Below, in pieces: positions 18,220 through 31,370 of a DNA stretch of 32,290 bases. The stretch comes from Hahella sp. (GTDB lineage Bacteria; Pseudomonadota; Gammaproteobacteria; Pseudomonadales; Oleiphilaceae), in assembly GCA_028280065.1 (NCBI GenBank), contig JANQMN010000063.1, positions 1 to 32,290 on the forward strand, given 5' to 3'. The notes beneath the pieces were generated by a model. That model saw nothing but the letters and a program-made list of their open reading frames with translations, ran no database searches and had not been told where the DNA came from. The stretch's first letter is position 1, and the number at the start of each line of letters is the position of its first letter. The position numbers were made by a program, and so were the translations under genes.

Positions 18220-18235
18220 TGGCACACCCCATGCA
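18220..18235 (+). promoter_or_regulatory. Sigma-54 (-24/-12) promoter of the Ro60-like gene
   Basis: TGGCACACCCCATGCA has the invariant GG (18221-18222) and GC (18233-18234) exactly 10 bases apart. TGGCAC is perfect, and the -12 box ATGCA differs from TTGCW by one base. Transcription would start near 18246, leaving a leader of about 128 bases before the GTG start. Sigma-54 promoters need an AAA+ activator, and none is encoded in this window. Confidence 0.65.
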
Positions 18236-18259
18236 ATATCGCCCTCAATGAACGTGGCG

Positions 18260-18343
18260 CGGGACTTCAGAGCAATTTCCGCATTTGTCTTCGAAACAAA
18301 AGAGCCTTATTGCTCTCCTCTTTCCCCGGTACGTTCAGTCCCG
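18260..18343 (+). ncRNA. Predicted structured leader RNA, possibly Y-RNA-like
   Basis: Three nested helices can form: CGGGACT (18260-18266) with AGTCCCG (18337-18343), AGAGCAAT (18269-18276) with ATTGCTCT (18309-18316), and TTTGT (18284-18288) with ACAAA (18296-18300). The outer two are perfect at 7 and 8 bp. The 5' strands of the outer helices are only 2 bases apart, while the 3' strands are separated by 20, an asymmetric internal loop. It begins about 14 bases after the expected sigma-54 start and ends 30 bases before the Ro60-like gene. Ro60 proteins bind Y RNAs with long end-pairing stems, so this could be the ligand or a control element. No tRNA-like T-loop is seen. Confidence 0.4.
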
Positions 18344-18373
18344 ATAAATTTGCGTTAACACTGAGAGGCTGAA

Positions 18374-19807
18374 GTGCGTCGGCAATCCATTCAAACAAAC
18401 ACTCTACAATTCATCGAAAAAGAAGATTTGATGCTGTTTGTGAATGCCTGTTTTACCTGTACGCAACAACAAGAGTTCTATGAAAGCAATCAAAGCCAGA
18501 GATTGTCTATCGAATTTCTCCACGACTATATCCTAGGTAACTATCGGCAGTTGTATGCGCTAACACTGGCCGCAGGCATTAATCACTTTAATCAGAGCCT
18601 GATTGTTCTGAAATTATTAGCTGCCGGTGCGCCTGAAGCATCTGATTGGAAAATTGAAGAAGGAGATTTAATCAGAAATGCTTTGAAGGGTCTTCCTGTG
18701 AACCGGGTGTTCAAGTTATTCGGGCAATTGAAGAAGCTTCGCGTAAATAATCGTCGCACTCGGGCTGTGATAAAGGAATATCTGGTAAGCCGAACAGACC
18801 CGGCGTTTGATGCGGTGAAGTATCGCGCCAAAGTAAAGGATGCGATCACGCATACGCACATGAATGCGATGGGTGAACTCGGACGATTTCTGTTTGGCGT
18901 AAAACCCGGAGCCCCCTTCCAGACACCTTTGTTCGAGACCTATCGAAAAGCCGAGTACAGCCAGAAGGCCATGTACGCGTTGCCTTTTACGGTGGCAGAA
19001 GGATTTGCGGTGAAACATGGAATCTCACGCGCGCAGTTTCTGAAGAATATTCAATCAAATATGACACAGGCAGAGCGTCTGCGCTTGCAATCCAGTGCTT
19101 CAAGAGAAAGAAATACTTCGATTGAAGTGGATTTCAAAAAGACGGGGCTGACCAAACTATCTCTGTACTGGTTGTCTCTGGATGAGAAAATGCGTGCGGC
19201 TCATCGAACCAAGATGGAACAGGGGTTGGATCATCAGGTGACTCGACTTCTGCAGGGAATGGATCTGGGAACGAGGAAGATTGCGCTGGTTGCTGATCGT
19301 AGCTACTCCATGTGGGGAAGTTACGAGAAAAAGCAACGTCCTCTTGCGGTGGTATTTGGCATTCATCAGTTATTGCAGCGCGCGAATCAACAGGGACTGT
19401 GTGATTGGTATAAAGCTTTTTGGTCGGTTAAACCGAAGGATGCCATGGCTTTAACACCTTATGGACAAACCAGCATCTCCGAGCCCTTCGTTAAGGCGCT
19501 GTCTGCTCGTCCGGACTTGATATTAATTGTGTCTGATGGAGCGGAAAATGATCCGCCAGGTGTAACGGATCAGGTATTCCGGGCATGGAAGCAAAATTTT
19601 GCTGAGTCGGACAACACCCGAGTAATACACCTGAACCCGGTGTATAACGCGGATAGCTTTACAGTGAAACCGCTAAGCGGCGAAATGTTAACGCTTGGTA
19701 TCCGCGACGCCGAAGACCTCCCTTTTTTACTGAATTATGGAAAATTTGTAGAGGAGCACTCCTGTTTGGCCGACTTCACGGAATATCTGAGAGGCAAATT
19801 AAAATAG
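18374..19807 (+). CDS. Ro60/TROVE-like protein with C-terminal vWA domain
   Basis: The 477-residue protein has an all-helical N-terminal part (about 15-295) that resembles the HEAT-like ring of Ro60/TROVE proteins. A von Willebrand A domain follows (about 300-470). The metal site is complete: DRSYS (Asp308, Ser310, Ser312), Thr366 in YGQTS and Asp388 in IVSDGAEND. Ro60 relatives bind misfolded and Y RNAs and help RNA turnover or repair. Size and domain order fit bacterial Rsr (about 500-540). The GTG start has an AGAGG site 5-6 bases ahead. It lies behind a sigma-54-type promoter and a foldable leader. TROVE assignment rests on architecture, not on a database match; a different helical-repeat vWA family remains possible. 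Confidence 0.7.
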   Translation: MRRQSIQTNTLQFIEKEDLMLFVNACFTCTQQQEFYESNQSQRLSIEFLHDYILGNYRQLYALTLAAGINHFNQSLIVLKLLAAGAPEASDWKIEEGDLIRNALKGLPVNRVFKLFGQLKKLRVNNRRTRAVIKEYLVSRTDPAFDAVKYRAKVKDAITHTHMNAMGELGRFLFGVKPGAPFQTPLFETYRKAEYSQKAMYALPFTVAEGFAVKHGISRAQFLKNIQSNMTQAERLRLQSSASRERNTSIEVDFKKTGLTKLSLYWLSLDEKMRAAHRTKMEQGLDHQVTRLLQGMDLGTRKIALVADRSYSMWGSYEKKQRPLAVVFGIHQLLQRANQQGLCDWYKAFWSVKPKDAMALTPYGQTSISEPFVKALSARPDLILIVSDGAENDPPGVTDQVFRAWKQNFAESDNTRVIHLNPVYNADSFTVKPLSGEMLTLGIRDAEDLPFLLNYGKFVEEHSCLADFTEYLRGKLK

Positions 19808-19845
19808 GCCGTTGGATGCGGCCTCATATGAAAAACGACCGCATC
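19807..19845 (+). promoter_or_regulatory. Alternative hairpins between the Ro60-like and ARPP-1-like genes
   Basis: GGCCG (19807-19811) can pair with CGGCC (19819-19823). Alternatively GATGCGG (19815-19821) can pair with CCGCATC (19839-19845). The two share bases and exclude each other. They fill the short gap before the next gene, and no T-run follows. They might tune expression of the second gene or stabilise the first message; this is only a structural observation. Confidence 0.3.
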
Positions 19846-19865
19846 ACCCACTAGCACTGACTAAA

Positions 19866-21080
19866 ATGAAAGCCATGAGCCAAAGTAAATACGTACTGAC
19901 ACATCTTGACCTTAACCAGTTCACCCTAGCGCCTTCTCAGGTATGGGGTAATATCCGGCTGGTTCCTGTCATAAGGAAACCTGATTCTGCTGCTCCGGAA
20001 GAGAAAGCAAAGTTGCGATTGGGATTGCGTTCTTACGACGAACCTTATTCCATTGTCGCACTGGATGGTAAGCCCTCGCTACAAGACACCAGTACTTGCT
20101 ATTACAGTTACATTCCCCATGCCATGGTGGCAACTTGGTCCAACGACGGGCAGCCACATGCGGCGCAAGGGTGTTACCTGAAGCAAAGCAAGAAAAAGCA
20201 GTCGGATAATATGGTGCGTTTGGAATACCGAATGGCCAAAAGGGAAGGGCTGAACCAATACCGGTTCCTACCTTTACACCTGGCCATGGAGGGTTTTCTG
20301 TCGATTTGCTTTAACGGTCCCAATGTCGCCTGGGGCGAATACACGGATTCCGCATTACGTTTCGGTCTACAGCAGCGGTCCGAACGATCTGTTAACGGGC
20401 GCTGTATCGATGGGCTCGAAGAAGCGCTGCGCGTTTTTGAGATTCACCCCAATCAGATCGGAATGGTTGTCTTCGTTGCCGATTCCCTGGCGTCCATATT
20501 TATTGTCTCACACCCTTTGGATTACCGGGTTATGCATCAAAGTTTGCTGGAAGATTTCTATGGAGAAATTCTGTTTTACTATGGAGCAACCGACTATACC
20601 GCGCCGGATCTTCTGGACGCGATAAATAACGACTTGGCGGAAGATCTTGAGATACAGAAGGTCGAGGACCTCCATAAAATCGTCGATACCGCCCGGCAAT
20701 CCTGGCAAAAGGAACAAACGGGATTGATGCAGGAGATCATCGGCCGGCAGATTGAGTCGAAAGTCGTTAATCGCCTCGGCCCTTTTAGGTTGCAGCGTTT
20801 CACCACGGATTTTGATCCGGCCAAAACCAACTATATCGGTGAGGCACTAGTGCGAAAGGACGGTTCGATCGAATATCTGAAGACTTTTAATCTATCCCGT
20901 GCACAGACAAATCGGGTTCGGCTGTTAAAAACTCTGGCCGATCACGACTGGCATTTGGAACAAACAGCGAAAACCTTGGAATGCACGAAAGGAGATTTAC
21001 TAAAACGATTGGATCACGCTGGGTTCGGGTATTTGATAAAACAACACTTAATGAATCCCTCGGCACATCGAAAGAACTGA
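19866..21080 (+). CDS. ARPP-1-like protein with C-terminal Fis-type helix-turn-helix
   Basis: The 404-residue protein has an N-terminal to central region that resembles the ARPP-1 domain, a family linked by genome context to NAD/ADP-ribose enzymes. The matching patterns are VWGNIRLVPVIR near the start and the segment NQIGMVVFVADSLASIFIVSHPLDY followed by a helical LLEDFYGEILFYYG. A helical linker follows. The last 55 residues (about 350-390) read as a Fis/HTH_8 motif (NRVRLLKTLADHDWHLEQTAKTLECTKGDLLKRL), like the DNA-binding end of NtrC-type activators, but there is no AAA+ domain. The start is uncertain: ATG at 19866 or 19875; an upstream TTG at 19812 is less likely. It is 58 bases after the Ro60-like gene and probably cotranscribed. 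No enzymatic role is claimed. Confidence 0.55.
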   Translation: MKAMSQSKYVLTHLDLNQFTLAPSQVWGNIRLVPVIRKPDSAAPEEKAKLRLGLRSYDEPYSIVALDGKPSLQDTSTCYYSYIPHAMVATWSNDGQPHAAQGCYLKQSKKKQSDNMVRLEYRMAKREGLNQYRFLPLHLAMEGFLSICFNGPNVAWGEYTDSALRFGLQQRSERSVNGRCIDGLEEALRVFEIHPNQIGMVVFVADSLASIFIVSHPLDYRVMHQSLLEDFYGEILFYYGATDYTAPDLLDAINNDLAEDLEIQKVEDLHKIVDTARQSWQKEQTGLMQEIIGRQIESKVVNRLGPFRLQRFTTDFDPAKTNYIGEALVRKDGSIEYLKTFNLSRAQTNRVRLLKTLADHDWHLEQTAKTLECTKGDLLKRLDHAGFGYLIKQHLMNPSAHRKN

Positions 21081-23797: not shown

Positions 23798-23911
23798 TCC
23801 TGCATCCTCAAGACAGAATGTTGCCGTTTCTGCGGCAAATCCCCCAATGTATCCGTACTGCTAAGGGTGCGTAGGTATTCGTTACCCTTTGACGCCCGAT
23901 GCAAGCAAGTC

Positions 23912-23944
23912 CTTCTCTACAATGTTTCGCACAATGTAGAGGAG
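23912..23944 (+). promoter_or_regulatory. Hairpin sequestering the ribosome site of the PTS fusion gene
   Basis: CTTCTCTACA (23912-23921) can pair with TGTAGAGGAG (23935-23944), ten base pairs with one T-G wobble. An A-A mismatch and a further TGT/ACA helix continue inside. The 3' arm is the Shine-Dalgarno sequence of the gene starting at 23951, so this fold would block translation. Confidence 0.45.
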
Positions 23945-23950
23945 ATTCAT

Positions 23951-26515
23951 ATGGCGACTGAAAACAACAACAGCAGTAGTTCTTCCTTGGTAACAATTTA
24001 CGCGCCTCTGGCCGGTGCGATCATTCCCCTTGAACAGGTTCCCGACCCCGTCTTCGCCCAAAAAATGGTGGGCGATGGTGTTTCCATCGATCCCGTTGAA
24101 TCGATACTGCGCGCCCCTTTTGATGGCGAGATTATTCAATTAACCGGTACTTCTCATGCAGTGACTTTGCGCAGTTCTGAAGGTCTGGAAGTACTGATTC
24201 ATATCGGCATTGATACCGTGTTGCTCAAAGGGCAAGGTTTCACCGCTTTGGTTAAGCAAGGCGATATGGTGAAGAAAGGCCAGCCTTTGATTGAATTCGA
24301 TGCCGATAAAGTGGCCAGAAAAGCCAAGAGCTTGATGACGGAAGTGATACTGACCAACGGCGATGGTCTGGTGAGTCGGTTAAATACAATCCCCTCGAGT
24401 TCCGTTGCGGCTCAGTCCCCCTTGCTTGAAGTCACCCTGGGCGAGATCACCTCCGGTCCTGCTAGTGGAACTGGTGAATGGCAAGCGGGTGCCCCGGTGT
24501 TAATTCCCAACCCAACCGGTATGCATGCGCGACCTGCAGCGACCTTGGTCAAAATGGCTAAGGAATATACCTCTGAAATTGAGCTGGAATGTCATCAGCA
24601 GCGAGCCAATGCACGCAGTTTGGTCAGCATCATGAATCTCAATATCCAACTGGGTGATAGTGTTCGGGTTTTTGCTCGGGGTGAAGATGCAACGGAAGCG
24701 CTTAATGTTCTGAGTGAAGCGTTGCGTTCCGGACTGGGCGAAGAAGGAGTGTCTGCCGATGGTGCCGTTGTTGCGTCCGGTTTGGACAACGAAGCTTCAC
24801 TACTGTTTCCGCCCAGTGATGACGACAATCGGCTGAGTGGTGTCACCGCATCGCCCGGACTAGCTTACGGCGTGCTATATCAGCTTCAGGAAGAGCGCTT
24901 TGATTTTGCCGAAACCTCCCATAACGTCCCTAAAGAGTTCGTCGCTCTGGATGGAGCCATTTTTCAGGCAAATCGGGAACTTTCTCAGTTACGGGATAAG
25001 CTGACCAATGCAAAACAAGCCGAAAAAGCCAAAATCTTCGAAGCCCACCAGGAACTCTTGGGAGATCCTGAGCTTTATGACCGTGCTGCGGACCTGGTCA
25101 AACAGAGTCACACCGCTGCCTATGCCTGGAGTAATGCCGTCTCGGCGCAGGTAGATCAGCTCAAAAAGCTCAACAACGCAATTCTGGCAGAACGTGCCAG
25201 TGACTTGAAAGACGTAGGTAAGCGGGTGTTGAGACATATTCTAGGGCAACCGGAATCCAGTATCGAACTGCCCGAGAATACCATTCTGATCGCTCAGGAC
25301 TTGACGCCTTCCGATACTGCAAATATCGATACCAGTAAAGTTGTTGGTTTTTGCACCGCCGCCGGTGGCGCTACCTCACACAGTGCCATTCTGGCCCGTT
25401 CAATGAATATTCCGGCTTTAGCCGGGATGGGCGAAACCTTATTGAGACTGGAAAACGGCACTCCCGCCATCCTGAATGGTGATGCCAGTCAGTTGGAACT
25501 CAATCCTTCTGCAACGGCCATGGATGAGATCAATGCTGAGCGGGAGAAACGTGAAAGCATTCGCCAGCAGAACCTGCAGGGTGCCCATCAACCGGCCCAA
25601 ACTTCGGATAGCAAGACTATTGAGGTGGTTGCCAATATCGGCAATGTGAAGGACGCCGAAGAGGCGGCCAGACTTGGTGGAGACGGTGTCGGCCTGTTGC
25701 GTTCCGAGTTCCTGTTTTTAAACCGTGCGGCAGCGCCGAGCGAAGAAGATCAATACCAGACGTATCGTCAAGCGACCGAAGCACTGGGACCGGAAAAACC
25801 ACTTATCGTGCGCACCCTTGATGTTGGTGGCGATAAGCCGCTGCCATATCTGCCCTTGCCGGAAGAGGAGAATCCTTTCCTGGGCGAAAGAGGCATCCGT
25901 ATCGGCCTGGATAAGCCAGCCATTCTCAGACAGCAGCTACGAGCCCTGTTACGCGCATCCGAGCATGGCAACATCCATATCATGTTCCCCATGATCAGCG
26001 ATCTTCACGAACTCAGACTTGCCAAAAAGGTCCTGGAAGAAGAACGCATTGCATTAGGGGTTAAGCCGGTTCCGGTAGGCATTATGATCGAAGTGCCTTC
26101 CGCGGCCGTGATGGCTGATGTGTTCGCCCCGGAGGTGGATTTCTTTTCGGTCGGTACCAACGATCTGACTCAGTACACCCTGGCAATGGATCGGGGGCAC
26201 CCCAAACTCGCTGCACTGGCAGACGCATTACATCCTTCGGTATTACGACTTATTTTGCAAACCGTTAAGGCTGCCAATCAGCATGGGAAATGGGTTGGCG
26301 TTTGTGGCGGCGTTGCCGGAGATCCGTTGGCCGTGCCGCTACTGATCGGCCTCGGTGTCAAAGAACTTTCTGTCAGCGTCCCGGTACTGCCCGATGTGAA
26401 GGCCGCAGTACGAGCTTCCGACAGTGCAAAATGCCGCGAACTGGCCAAGCAAGCCTTGCAGTTTGCCAGTGCCAGTGAAGTACGCGAATACCTGGAAACA
26501 ACCATCACTGGTTGA
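23951..26515 (+). CDS. PTS multiphosphoryl transfer protein: EIIA(Glc)-HPr-EI fusion
   Basis: This 854-residue cytoplasmic protein takes phosphate from phosphoenolpyruvate and passes it down the sugar phosphotransferase chain. EIIA-Glc (about 14-150) has phospho-His84 in LIHIGIDT and His69 nearby. HPr (about 182-265) has phospho-His192 in GMHARPAA. EI (about 295-850) has phospho-His477 in GGATSHSAILAR, a PEP-binding core with VGTNDLTQYTLAMDRGH, and catalytic Cys785 in CGGVAGD (often CGEMAGD). The order is that of Pseudomonas NagF. The ATG at 23951 follows AGAGGAG; a frame 28 codons longer lacks support. It lies 113 bases upstream of ptsG, which supplies EIICB, so together they form a complete uptake system. 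Confidence 0.95.
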   Translation: MATENNNSSSSSLVTIYAPLAGAIIPLEQVPDPVFAQKMVGDGVSIDPVESILRAPFDGEIIQLTGTSHAVTLRSSEGLEVLIHIGIDTVLLKGQGFTALVKQGDMVKKGQPLIEFDADKVARKAKSLMTEVILTNGDGLVSRLNTIPSSSVAAQSPLLEVTLGEITSGPASGTGEWQAGAPVLIPNPTGMHARPAATLVKMAKEYTSEIELECHQQRANARSLVSIMNLNIQLGDSVRVFARGEDATEALNVLSEALRSGLGEEGVSADGAVVASGLDNEASLLFPPSDDDNRLSGVTASPGLAYGVLYQLQEERFDFAETSHNVPKEFVALDGAIFQANRELSQLRDKLTNAKQAEKAKIFEAHQELLGDPELYDRAADLVKQSHTAAYAWSNAVSAQVDQLKKLNNAILAERASDLKDVGKRVLRHILGQPESSIELPENTILIAQDLTPSDTANIDTSKVVGFCTAAGGATSHSAILARSMNIPALAGMGETLLRLENGTPAILNGDASQLELNPSATAMDEINAEREKRESIRQQNLQGAHQPAQTSDSKTIEVVANIGNVKDAEEAARLGGDGVGLLRSEFLFLNRAAAPSEEDQYQTYRQATEALGPEKPLIVRTLDVGGDKPLPYLPLPEEENPFLGERGIRIGLDKPAILRQQLRALLRASEHGNIHIMFPMISDLHELRLAKKVLEEERIALGVKPVPVGIMIEVPSAAVMADVFAPEVDFFSVGTNDLTQYTLAMDRGHPKLAALADALHPSVLRLILQTVKAANQHGKWVGVCGGVAGDPLAVPLLIGLGVKELSVSVPVLPDVKAAVRASDSAKCRELAKQALQFASASEVREYLETTITG

Positions 26516-26628
26516 TCCCATCTTAAATTCAAATAGGCAGTATTCAAATATCACCTGGCTTCTGTACCCGGTTCTCAAGCAAAACAAACCGAAATGCAGA
26601 AGCCAGAATCAAAACAGGAGCAATCATT

Positions 26629-28389
26629 ATGAGCGTTGGTAAACAAATGTTCGCCGCCCTGCAAAAGGTCGGGAAATCTCTGATGCTGCCGGTGTCGGTA
26701 TTACCGGTAGCGGGTATCTTACTAGGCGTGGGTGCGGCTAAGTTCGGTTGGCTGCCCGAAGTCGTATCGCAAATTCTGGAACAGGCCGGAGGCGCGGTAT
26801 TCGGCAATATGGGATTGTTGTTTGCGATCGGTGTTGCCCTGGGTTTCACCAAAAATGATGGTGTAGCTGCCCTGGCTGCCGGTGTCGGCTACTTTATCAT
26901 GCTGAAAACCCTGGCGGTTCTCGCGCCGGGCACCGATGTCGGTATTCTTGGCGGAATCCTGGTGGGCGGAGTTGCAGCCTGGGCCTTTAACCGTTTCTTC
27001 AAACTCGAACTGCCGGCTTATCTTGGATTCTTCGCCGGTAAGCGTTCGGTACCGATCATTACCGGCTTCAGTGCCATTGCGCTGGCAGCGGTATTATCAA
27101 TGATCTGGCCGCCGATTGGGTCTGGCATTAAAGCATTCTCCATGTGGGCTGCTTATCAAAACCCTGAATTGGCCTTTGGTATCTATGGTGTGATCGAACG
27201 TGCGCTTATTCCTCTTGGCCTGCACCACATCTGGAATGCGCCTTTCTTCTTCGAAGCGGGCTCTTGTGTTAACTCTTCCGGTGAAGCACTTAACGGTGTA
27301 TTGACTTGCTACCTTTCTGCCGACGAAGCCACTCGCGCCGCAGGTAACGGTTTCGGTCAGTTAGCAGGTGGTTACATGTTCAAGATGTTCGGCCTGCCTG
27401 CTGCGGCTATCGCAATCTGGCAAACTGCCAAGCCTGAGAATCGCGCCAAAGTAGGCGGTATTATGCTCTCCGCAGCTTTCACATCTTTCCTGACAGGGAT
27501 CACCGAGCCAATCGAATTCTCATTCCTGTTCGTGGCCCCTATTTTGTACGTTATCCATGCGTTGTTGGCCGGTTCTGCCTTTGTCCTGACCAATATGTTC
27601 GGTCTGGTACACGGTACTTCTTTCTCCCACGGCTTCATTGATTATGTAGTGCTGTTTGCCAACTCCGAGAAAGGCCTGATGATCCCTGTATTCGGATTGG
27701 CATATGCCGCCATCTACTACACAGTATTCCGCGCAGTGATCATCAAACTCGACCTCAAAACACCTGGACGTGAAGTAGACGTTGAAGAAGGTGTAGATAT
27801 TCCTGCAGAAACCGATGATCGTGTCCGGGAAATTGTCATGGCATTCGGTGGTGGTGACAACATCGAAACATTGGATAACTGCATTACCCGACTGCGTATT
27901 GAAGTTAAAGATGTTGCCTTAGTCAATGAACCGATGATTAAAGCCATGGGGGCTTCTGCGGTAATCGTGATGGGCAATGGCGTACAGGCAATCTTCGGGT
28001 TGGAAGCGGATACCTTGAGGACTGCGATGGAAGAATTCCTGGCCAGTGGCGAGAAAGTCTCTGCAGTTCCTGCACGGTCAGCGCCTGCCACCGCGCAGCC
28101 AGTCAGTGCCGCTGCCGCTGGCACAGTTGAAACTGTCACCGCCGCCCAGAACGAACTGGCCCAGACGCTGCTCGAACTGCTCGGGGGTAAAGACAATATC
28201 AAGGACAGCATGGTGTGTGCAGACAGCCGCCTTCGGATCGAACTGAAGCAGCAAGTCAAGCTGGATGAAAATGCTCTGCAAGAAGCCGGTGTGAAGAACT
28301 TCATGCCCATCAATGAGCGGATAATGCATCTATTGCTGGGTGAGGGTGCCATGGGAACTGGGATGGCGTTGAAAAAACTTCTGGCTTAG
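26629..28389 (+). CDS. ptsG: PTS glucose transporter EIICB with an extra degenerate EIIB domain
   Basis: This inner-membrane permease imports and phosphorylates glucose. The 586 residues hold a PtsG-type EIIC domain (about 10-385) with [20 protein letters not shown] and [10 protein letters not shown], very close to E. coli PtsG. An EIIB domain (about 397-472) has phospho-Cys418 in LDNCITRLR. An Ala/Pro linker follows, then a second EIIB-like domain (about 508-586). In the second, Cys530 is one residue too early (C-ADS-RLR instead of C-IT-RLR), so the catalytic position is Ala531. The substrate is probably glucose from EIIC similarity; N-acetylglucosamine is possible, since NagF-NagE pairs look alike and no nag enzyme genes are here to decide. 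Confidence 0.9.
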
Positions 28390-28417
28390 ATGCATAACAG
28401 TGCATTGATCAACAGAA

Positions 28418-28450
28418 CCCGCCTCCTAAACAGATATGTTAGGGGGCGGG
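28418..28450 (+). terminator. Strong GC-rich stem-loop between ptsG and glgC
   Basis: CCCGCCTCCTAA pairs with TTAGGGGGCGGG over 12 bp with one T-G wobble and a 9-base loop, 28 bases after the ptsG stop. No T-run follows, so it is not a textbook terminator. It may terminate partially, protect the pts message, or separate pts from glg expression. Confidence 0.45.
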
Positions 28451-28537
28451 ACTGCCCACCCGATCCACCAGGAACCAGAACATCAGGTGATAGAAATTCA
28501 CTTGTTTTTAAAGAATAAAGAATTGCCGGAGCAAACT

Positions 28538-29806
28538 ATGAATGACCAAAATCCACGTTATGTCAGTCGTCTGACCAAAGACACACTGGCCCTTGTCCTT
28601 GCCGGCGGCCGCGGCTCGAGATTGCATGAACTGACCGATTGGCGAGCCAAGCCGGCCCTTTACTTCGGCGGAAAATACCGGATTATCGACTTTCCGCTAT
28701 CCAACTGCATTAACTCCGGTATTCGCCGGGTTGGGGTTTTAACTCAGTACAAGGCGCACTCACTGGTGCGCCACCTGGTCTCCGGTTGGAGTCATTTCAA
28801 AAAGGAGTTGGGAGAATATGTCGAAATTTTACCGGCGTCCCAACGCTACTCGGAAGACTGGTACCTGGGGACTGCCGACGCTATTTTCCAGAATCTTGAT
28901 ATCATTCGCGCTGAGATGCCCAAGTATGTTCTGGTATTGTCCGGTGACCATATCTACAAAATGGACTATGGCGCAATGCTCGTGGCGCATGTAGAGAGCG
29001 GCGCCGAGATGACCGTGTCTTGCCTGGAGGTTCCCGTGGAAGAAGCTGCCGGTGCGTTTGGGGTGATGAAAGTGGATGCGGATAGCAGGGTGATGGCATT
29101 TGAAGAAAAGCCAGCCAATCCATCGCCTATTCCCGGTCAGGAAGAATTGACCCTGGCGTCCATGGGGAATTACATATTCAACACAGACTTCCTATTTGAT
29201 CAGTTGCAAAAAGATGCTGCCAGAGAAAACTCTTCTCACGATTTTGGCCATGATATCATTCCGGCTGTGGTCGATGAACATCATGTTCTTGCCTATCCTT
29301 TCAGGGATTTGGAAACCGGCGAGCGAGCCTACTGGCGTGATGTCGGAACTTTGGATTCCTTTTGGGAAGCCAACATGGAACTGGTTTCCACCAGTCCGGC
29401 GTTGAACATTTATGATAAAGATTGGCCTGTGTGGACTTATCAGGCCCAACTGCCACCGGCTAAATTTGTTTTTGATGACAGTGACCGTCGGGGTATGGCG
29501 GTTGATTCGATGGTGTCCGGCGGTTGCATCATCTCAGGTTCAAAAATCAAAGGTTCCTTGCTGTTTTCTGATGTTGTGGTCAACTCCTATTCGAGCATTG
29601 AGGAATCGGTAGTACTGCCGAACGCGACAATAGGCCGGAACTGTAAAATTCGTAAAGCCATTATTGATAGAAGTTGCCACGTGCCGGAAGGCAGTGTTAT
29701 CGGCTATGATGCCGAACAGGATAAAGCCAACGGATTCAGAGTGACGAATAAAGGAGTGGTGTTAGTCACCCGTGGGATGCTCGGTCAAGCAGAGGGATAT
29801 GTTTAA
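28538..29806 (+). CDS. glgC: Glucose-1-phosphate adenylyltransferase
   Basis: GlgC makes ADP-glucose from glucose-1-phosphate and ATP, the committed step of bacterial glycogen synthesis. The 422-residue protein has the nucleotide-binding [11 protein letters not shown] near residue 20, [20 protein letters not shown] with the allosteric and substrate lysines, and [10 protein letters not shown]. The FEEKP sugar-phosphate site follows, and a C-terminal left-handed beta-helix completes it. Length fits the family (about 420-430). The ATG at 28538 has a GGAG-like site; the longer frame upstream runs through the intergenic stem-loop. It precedes glgA by 88 bases. Confidence 0.97.
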
Positions 29807-29894
29807 CCTTTTACCTAGAAACTGCAATTCACTTGGGATTCGGCCTAAACTCAGCCGGCACTACTTCTCATAAGTTGAAAATCAGGCGCAGATA

Positions 29895-31370
29895 ATGAAT
29901 ATAGTTTGGGCAACAAGTGAAGCCGCTCCCTTTGCGAAAACCGGCGGCTTGGCCGATGTATCCTACTCACTCCCCTATGCTCTGGCAGAGAATGGGCATC
30001 ATGTTTCGGTGTTCATGCCCTATTACCCGCAGATTATGGGGGATAGGTGCAATGATACGGAGTCTATCTATGATCTTCTGCGCGTGTCTTTCGGTGAAGG
30101 AAATGAGGAAAATGCGAGCATAAGGCGACATAAGATCAACGGTAATCTCACTTTTTACTTTATTGAGTACAACCGGTTCTTCGATCGCCCCAAACTATAC
30201 GACTGGGAAGGCAACGCCTACTCCGATAATGCCGAACGCTTCATTTTTCTGAGCCGGGCAATTATGCAGGCAGTACTTGCACTCGACCTTGACGTCGATG
30301 TCTTTCACAGTAATGACTGGCATACCGCTTTATGCAGTGTTTACCTAAAAAGCGCCCTATACAACTCACAAAGTAATTTTCGTCAGACAAAGTCGGTCAT
30401 CACGATTCATAACATTGGTTATCAGGGTGTCTTCCAAAAACCCAATCTTTATTGGACCGGGTTAGGTTGGGAGTACTTCAATGTTAATTGCCTGGAGTTC
30501 TACGATCAGATCAACTTCCTCAAAGCGGGTGTGCTGACTTCAGATATGGTGACCACTGTTAGCCCGACCTATGCCGAAGAAATATTGTCACCGGAGTTCG
30601 GGTTCGGCTTGGAGCGCGCCCTTCAGCACCGGGCCGTAAAAGGTAAACTGCGTGGCATTTTAAATGGAATCAATGTCCAGGAGTGGAATCCGGAAACAGA
30701 TAAGCTGATCCCTCACAACTATTCTGCCAAAGACCTGCAGGGAAAGTCGCGCTGCAAATATGCACTTCAAAAGGAGTTTGGTCTGCCAGCCCGACCCGAA
30801 GTGCCGCTTTATGGCGTCGTATCAAGACTGGCACACCAGAAGGGGCTTGATGTATTCATTGAGGCGATTGATGAAATGCTCAAGGAGGACGATGCTCAAT
30901 TCGTTGTTGTCGGTTCCGGAGAACTCTGGCAGGAAAACGCCATCGTTCAGTATGCTAAAGAATACCCGGAAAAGTTCGGCGGTTTTATTGGTTACAACAA
31001 CAAGCTCGCTCATATGATTGAAGCAGGCTCCGATCTATTTGTAATGCCATCAAGGTACGAGCCCTGTGGCCTCAACCAGATGTACAGTATGGCTTATGGC
31101 ACCATTCCCATTGTAAGCTCGACAGGTGGCCTTGAAGATACTGTAAAGAACTACTCCGCGCAGCGTATCGACACCGCCACCGGATTCAAAATGTACGATC
31201 TATACCCGGCAGCACTCAGAGAAACCATGCGATGGGCAGCATCGGTGTATCGAAATGATAAACCGGCGTTCAATAAGATGGTCAAAAACGGCATGGCGCT
31301 AGACTTCTCATGGCACCACACGGCAGTGGAATACGAGGAGTTATATCAATACGCAACCGCAAGATTTTAA
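29895..31370 (+). CDS. glgA: Glycogen synthase (ADP-glucose type, GT5)
   Basis: GlgA transfers glucose from ADP-glucose to growing alpha-1,4-glucan. The 491-residue protein has the GT5 signature KTGGLADV (about 16-23), HSNDWHTAL, the NGIN motif and the GT-B C-terminal VSRLAHQKGLD. SRYEPCGLNQMYSMAYGTIPIVSSTGGLEDTV contains the catalytic region. Branching enzyme (glgB), glgX and glgP are not in the window, so the rest of the glycogen set lies elsewhere. Confidence 0.97.
   Translation: MNIVWATSEAAPFAKTGGLADVSYSLPYALAENGHHVSVFMPYYPQIMGDRCNDTESIYDLLRVSFGEGNEENASIRRHKINGNLTFYFIEYNRFFDRPKLYDWEGNAYSDNAERFIFLSRAIMQAVLALDLDVDVFHSNDWHTALCSVYLKSALYNSQSNFRQTKSVITIHNIGYQGVFQKPNLYWTGLGWEYFNVNCLEFYDQINFLKAGVLTSDMVTTVSPTYAEEILSPEFGFGLERALQHRAVKGKLRGILNGINVQEWNPETDKLIPHNYSAKDLQGKSRCKYALQKEFGLPARPEVPLYGVVSRLAHQKGLDVFIEAIDEMLKEDDAQFVVVGSGELWQENAIVQYAKEYPEKFGGFIGYNNKLAHMIEAGSDLFVMPSRYEPCGLNQMYSMAYGTIPIVSSTGGLEDTVKNYSAQRIDTATGFKMYDLYPAALRETMRWAASVYRNDKPAFNKMVKNGMALDFSWHHTAVEYEELYQYATARF

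Follow-up and report, generated by a model that had tools for sequence, protein, structure and literature searches.

A probable three-part cassette of a Y-RNA-like RNA, a divergent Ro60-type ring protein and ARPP-2 in Hahella sp. and other bacteria

The closest described relatives of the locus reported here are the bacterial Ro60 (Rsr) proteins of the TROVE family (PF05731) and their Y RNAs, whose function, according to PMC7790460, was studied in Deinococcus radiodurans alone until 2020. As described there, Rsr is tethered to PNPase by a Y RNA in Deinococcus, and some rtcBA operons contain Ro60 and Y RNAs. The main contact of Ro60 is the bulged cytosine of the Y RNA stem (C9), a feature that bacterial Y RNAs have retained (PMC4030889), and PMC11277228 gives an account of the metal ion-dependent adhesion site (MIDAS) and the cavity of Ro60. 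A survey of jumbo phages furthermore reports TROVE proteins in a few phages as an RNA-repair platform (PMC7824862). We analysed a stretch of 32,290 nucleotides (nt) from Hahella sp. (contig JANQMN010000063.1, assembly GCA_028280065.1; hereafter the window), in which the gene of a predicted ring protein lies between a structured RNA and a gene encoding an ARPP-2 protein (Table 1). This locus probably represents a three-part cassette in which a Y-RNA-like RNA is combined with a divergent ring protein of the Ro60 type and with ARPP-2 as dedicated partner. A preliminary description of the same DNA had proposed a sigma-54-controlled pair of a Ro60-like and an ARPP-1-like gene without rtcB; its observation was confirmed, while its interpretation is only partly supported.

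The ring protein was modelled with AlphaFold2 from an alignment of 53 sequences (predicted local distance difference test, pLDDT, 87.1; pTM 0.87). The model predicts helices up to residue 293 followed by an alpha/beta domain, and all eight PDB chains matched by it in a Foldseek search at E <= 1e-3 were Ro60 (E 1.1e-5 to 1.1e-4, TMq <= 0.62), including Ro60-RNA complexes and the Ro60 of a Thermus phage. The MIDAS residues D308, S310, S312 and D388 are unchanged in the 53 sequences. The proposed Ro60-like ring, with helical repeats, a von Willebrand factor A (vWA) domain and an intact MIDAS, is thus borne out by the model and the alignment. Pfam and NCBIfam scans assigned no family to the protein of 477 amino acids (aa), and the Ro60 vWA model PF25045 weakly touches two of 54 members of the ring family (best E 0.11). 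Since Foldseek finds Ro60 while the TROVE profile does not match, the ring protein is predicted to possess the fold of Ro60 in a sequence family outside the curated one.

The leader of the ring gene had been noted as foldable. Between positions 18250 and 18339 it has a folding z-score of -3.9, which was equalled by none of 200 shuffles, and the value for the longer stretch from 18246 to 18372 was -1.66, with 10 of 200 shuffles being as good. This leader is in fact a conserved, covarying RNA: a text pattern detected its motif in 72 of 80 loci, and compensating changes separate the window copy from that of Pleionea (L007; L and G numbers denote our loci and genomes), the closest relative kept. 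An alignment and a covariance model, R1, were built from 57 non-redundant copies. The RNA has a length of approximately 90 nt and its ends are paired in a closing stem of nine pairs, which carries a single bulged pyrimidine on the 5' strand in 57 of 57 copies (C in 45, U in 12). Above the bulge, GGGA and UCCC form four near-invariant pairs, which are followed by an internal loop, an upper stem of seven pairs and an apical hairpin; the window copy contains one G-G mismatch within the closing stem. Changes on both sides were found for 14 of the 20 pairs, among them eight of the 13 pairs of helix 1, which joins the 5' and 3' ends. Paired cells account for 96.2% of the alignment compared with 83.5% in shuffles (none of 500 reached the observed value) and 40-49% with the partners slid. 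As deduced from the alignment, this anatomy is that of a Y RNA, and the locus therefore appears to include a Y-RNA-like component.

The second protein matched the ARPP-2 family (PF22549) with 312.8 bits against a cut-off of 27, whereas its match to ARPP-1 (E 0.013) remained below the cut-off. The ARPP-1 identity put forward in the preliminary description was therefore dropped. The gene more likely starts at the ATG at 19875 than at the TTG of the longer open frame, because homologous proteins begin at about this position. A C-terminal helix-turn-helix (HTH), which had also been proposed, is plausible on the basis of the three confidently modelled helices at residues 363-402, although none of the Pfam HTH models matches this stretch. 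The suggested link of the locus to NAD or ADP-ribose signalling derives from the family name and is not supported. No paper on ARPP-2 or on PF20208 or PF22549 was found in the mostly open-access literature, and among its best-ranked titles and abstract openings none describes the RNA or its pairing with ARPP genes, so that an earlier description is possible.

Linkage was counted in the best 80 of 221 ring relatives found in genome contigs. An ARPP-2 frame lies downstream of the ring gene at 76 of these loci, one of the others (L037) stopping at a contig edge, so the pairing of the two genes recurs as predicted. With R1 the RNA was located close to the ring gene at 78 of the 80 loci, a count which is partly circular because many of the copies behind it were also used to build R1; the exceptions are L020, which starts too near the ring gene, and L021, which is without a local copy. 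The recurring order is RNA, ring gene, ARPP-2 gene.

Searches of whole genomes provide a better test. In the 6.68-Mb genome of the window the RNA of the locus is the sole R1 match at E <= 1. Among 145 genomes from the family of Nostoc parmelioides (L026) the RNA was detected in 48 and the ring protein in the same 48, 97 genomes having neither; ARPP-2 was found in these 48 and in two others, and the RNA is located up to 1 kb upstream of the ring gene on the same strand in 47 of the 48. In 200 genomes from the family of Streptomyces monashensis (L069) the RNA occurs in 51 and a ring match in 52, or in 49 at E < 1e-50, a threshold omitting two genomes with only a weak paralogue (G621, G638) and one with a fragment of 84 residues (G665). 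With the stricter count 48 genomes have both, three the RNA only, one the ring only and 148 neither. The three genomes with RNA only retain debris of the cassette, namely a ring fragment and ARPP-2 (G665) or ARPP-2 remnants (G638, G783), and the single genome with ring only (G658) has a ring protein without a convincing RNA. Fisher tests, in which shared ancestry is ignored, gave 1.5e-39 for the Nostoc and 2.1e-41 for the Streptomyces family. Decayed cassettes were observed at four Streptomyces-family loci (L103, L104, L108, L109), in which the RNA survives alongside what is left of the ring or ARPP-2 genes, or alongside broken frames.

Several results weigh against the interpretation as a dedicated Ro60-type cassette. 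TROVE (PF05731) is missing from the matches of all 54 ring-family members at E <= 1, and a search of the window's genome with this profile gave no match; sequence identity in the Ro60 fold matches is only 10-13%, and hhalign of the ring family against two TROVE-matching proteins gave E-values of 1e-4 and 1.6e-4 with probabilities of 58% and 50%. The alignment shuffles and the co-occurrence tests do not account for kinship. Neither the window nor the eight loci scanned gave a relevant match to Rfam 15, the presence of YrlA in that release being unchecked; due to this lack of matches where scanned, the RNA may constitute a new family. A run of at least four T follows only six of 88 RNA copies and is absent after the window copy, although at one locus (L031) the stem is continued by a run of T. 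ARPP-2 was not detected after the ring gene in L014, L048 and L056. Finally, the ARPP-2 model is of middling quality (pLDDT 69.6) and matched no solved fold (best E 0.094), which makes any effector step a guess.

Table 1. Positions of the predicted features of the cassette in the window.
Feature	Positions	Strand	Remarks
Sigma-54-like -24/-12 element	18220-18235	+	GG-N10-GC, directly ahead of the RNA
Y-RNA-like structured RNA	18250-18336	+	Covariance model 59.4 bits, E 5.3e-11; covariation; fold z -3.9
Bulged C, 5' strand of closing stem	18260	+	Alignment column 16; C 45, U 12 among 57 copies
Ring protein open reading frame	18374-19807	+	Start GTG, 477 aa; predicted Ro60 fold, helices at about residues 1-293 and vWA-like domain
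MIDAS DxSxS motif, ring protein residues 308-312	19295-19309	+	Invariant residues in 53 sequences
Second open frame	19812-21080	+	Start TTG, 422 aa; begins 4 nt past the ring stop
ARPP-2 gene	19875-21080	+	Likely start ATG 19875; PF22549 E 2.2e-93; conserved neighbour; possible C-terminal HTH (model)

Compared with Ro60/Rsr and its Y RNA, the window locus shares the predicted fold of ring and vWA domain with the MIDAS residues and a small RNA with a 5'/3' stem and a bulged pyrimidine that is encoded beside the ring gene. It differs in the ring sequence and in the RNA, which lack TROVE and Rfam matches as described above, and in the partner, ARPP-2 taking the place of RtcB/RtcA or of the tethering to PNPase reported in PMC7790460. 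The rsr-yrlBA-rtcBA operon of Salmonella likewise combines a Ro60 relative with a small RNA, and sigma-54 control is possible in the window. However, neither the ligase nor the cyclase nor RtcR was found among the neighbours scanned beside the window cassette, and a tRNA-like domain such as that of YrlA (described in PMC7790460) is not seen in the fold of the window RNA.

Homologous rings followed by an ARPP protein also occur with ARPP-1 (PF20208) in Streptomyces- and Nostocaceae-family genomes, on an Alkaliphilus plasmid and in the 462-kb record of an uncultured phage (LR756500.1; L122:3402-6013), where ARPP-1 directly follows the ring homologue. In contrast to the window type, which has ARPP-2 and the RNA, these loci contain ARPP-1 and gave no R1 match at E <= 0.1. 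The Streptomyces-family paralogues L097-L099 match the ring alignment, with an ARPP-1 gene downstream in L097 and L099 but none in the frame scanned for L098. Hhalign of the ring family gave E 4e-36 to L097 and 2.3e-14 to L101, one of three representatives (L100-L102) of a second ring subfamily with ARPP-1 in genomes that also bear the ARPP-2 type (G606, G580, G559). Two tandem RNA-like stretches precede the ring paralogues of L097 and L098, one of which resembles, by eye, the D and T arms of tRNA; ARAGORN detected no tRNA in these stretches, and their fold z-scores range from -1.6 to -3.4. A match of R1 upstream of L098 (16.2 bits, E 0.14) was not strong enough to unite the two classes of RNA.

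According to the record titles, the loci of the cassette derive from cyanobacteria, Myxococcota, actinomycetes, planctomycetes and gammaproteobacteria, with genera such as Nostoc, Streptomyces and Myxococcus, which we take to represent several bacterial phyla. The ring protein was present in one of 101 genomes of the window's family and ARPP-2 in one of 369 genomes of its class, in both cases the window's own. Based on this rarity the cassette was probably acquired in the lineage of the window's genome. The ring/ARPP-2 pair was also detected on three Nostoc plasmids, two of which were typed as conjugative. On two of the three plasmids the ring gene is separated from the ARPP-2 gene by XisH and XisI genes (L003:7472-8211 and L005:7493-8232), the ring gene of L005 being broken as well. 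One record titled Comamonas sp. KCTC 72670 (L053) may be misnamed, since a nearly identical RNA occurs at a Myxococcus locus (L049). Clustering of the neighbouring genes at 85 loci gave no cluster besides ring and ARPP-2 that occurred in more than 14 loci, these counts being low owing to a crude gene caller. The four cluster representatives scanned were an EAD4-NACHT protein, a histidine kinase, a VanZ-like protein and a protein of no family. Genes clustering with the EAD4-NACHT protein (STAND NTPase) are located upstream of the RNA at L036 (4030-6939) and nine other loci, the L036 representative alone having been scanned.

The position of the RNA also permits a different interpretation, namely that it is a cis-acting leader (a riboswitch or a protein-binding autoregulatory element) controlling the ring-ARPP-2 mRNA, possibly with the ring protein regulating its own production by binding to it. 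Such a role is suggested by the location of the window RNA between a putative start site and the GTG of the ring gene and by the distance of at most 150 nt between the nearest copy and the ring coding match in 70 of 79 loci. It seems rather improbable, however, in view of two genomes in which RNA and ring gene are on different contigs, one carrying the ring gene on a contig of 236,315 bases and the RNA on another of 137,807 bases (L021), the other being G532; this separation indicates that the RNA is probably more than a cis leader. Two tandem copies in nine of 79 loci, three copies in G528, and a gap of 533-589 nt ahead of the coding match in three single-copy loci (L015, L017, L039) argue in the same direction. 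Furthermore, a -10-like TANNNT box was detected 3-10 nt ahead of the stem in 63 of 88 copies, compared with a mean of 15.9 and a maximum of 28 in 200 rounds of base shuffles. On balance the evidence favours a separate small RNA, which here and in many loci could also arise by processing from the 5' end of the operon mRNA.

In the window the place where other loci often carry the -10-like box is occupied, 31 nt before the stem, by the sigma-54-like site of the preliminary description (TGGCACACCCCATGCA), which indeed shows the GG-N10-GC spacing and a single mismatch to TGGCACN5TTGCW. According to the spacing rule of sigma-54 promoters, its GC at 18233-18234 would place the transcription start near 18246, 4 nt ahead of the stem, and such a start is suggestive. 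On its own the site is weak, since the window contains two such sites and shuffles (mean 1.29) reached this number in 39 of 100 cases, so that only its placement supports it. The pattern occurs in only two of 79 RNA loci, the other being that of Pleionea (L007), whose comparable site is poorer, having GT instead of GC, and lies 41 nt ahead of the stem. Sigma-54 control is thus not general to the system, and the sigma-54 leader was dropped as its defining feature. The site and the presence of Ro60 and Y RNAs in some rtcBA operons, as reported in PMC7790460, might also point to a member of an RtcR/sigma-54 RNA-repair operon that lost rtcBA. Taking into account the two loci with such a site and the ring family outside the TROVE profiles, this scenario is highly improbable; rtcB, rtcA and rtcR were, in agreement with the preliminary description of a locus without ligase and cyclase, not found among the neighbours scanned and the window genes from 10012 onwards, two small frames just downstream of the cassette (21160, 21558) excepted. 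A further possibility, compatible with the three-part cassette, is an anti-phage or conflict system in which RNA damaged by phage would be sensed by the particle of ring and RNA, ARPP-2 being the harmful output. The patchy distribution of the cassette, its presence on Nostoc plasmids, the related ring-ARPP-1 pair of the phage and the EAD4-NACHT-cluster genes near ten loci are consistent with this proposal. Nevertheless we consider it unlikely, given that seven proteins of the system match no PADLOC model at E <= 0.1 and that the ARPP-2 model resembles no solved fold. Single-protein searches of viral contigs confirmed nothing, and nine matches of the RNA pattern in these contigs were taken as chance, the best R1 match there having an E-value of 0.031.

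For the three-part cassette we infer a role in RNA surveillance by analogy to Ro60. The RNA would be made together with the ring, in the window organism possibly by a sigma-54 activator that switches on RNA and operon together. By binding the closing stem at the bulge with its outer face, as Ro60 binds Y RNA, the ring could be gated or tethered by the RNA, which would determine either what enters the ring or which partner it meets. The cavity and the MIDAS domain might take up single-stranded ends of misfolded or damaged RNA, and ARPP-2 might supply the output, presumably acting on or reporting the captured RNA. More tentatively, the cassette may belong to an undescribed second class of Y-RNA particles, comprising a Ro60-fold branch outside TROVE with an RNA family of its own and, as effector, an ARPP protein by which captured RNA is read or destroyed; plasmids and a large phage carry related pairs. 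If true, this would represent a bacterial sensor of RNA damage with a built-in output instead of repair by RtcB. The compact set of one RNA, one ring and one partner makes the role of a Ro60 ring and a Y RNA without a linked RNA ligase testable, and the module provides an entry point for studying the ARPP proteins, which are uncharacterised. Some of the host genera are tractable.

A Pfam scan of further window genes revealed that the gene upstream of the locus encodes a GGDEF protein. The region from 23867 to 31370 contains genes for a fusion of phosphotransferase system (PTS) enzyme I, HPr and IIA, for PTS IIBC, a nucleotidyl-transferase and starch-synthase-type proteins, and resembles an ordinary cluster for sugar uptake and storage.

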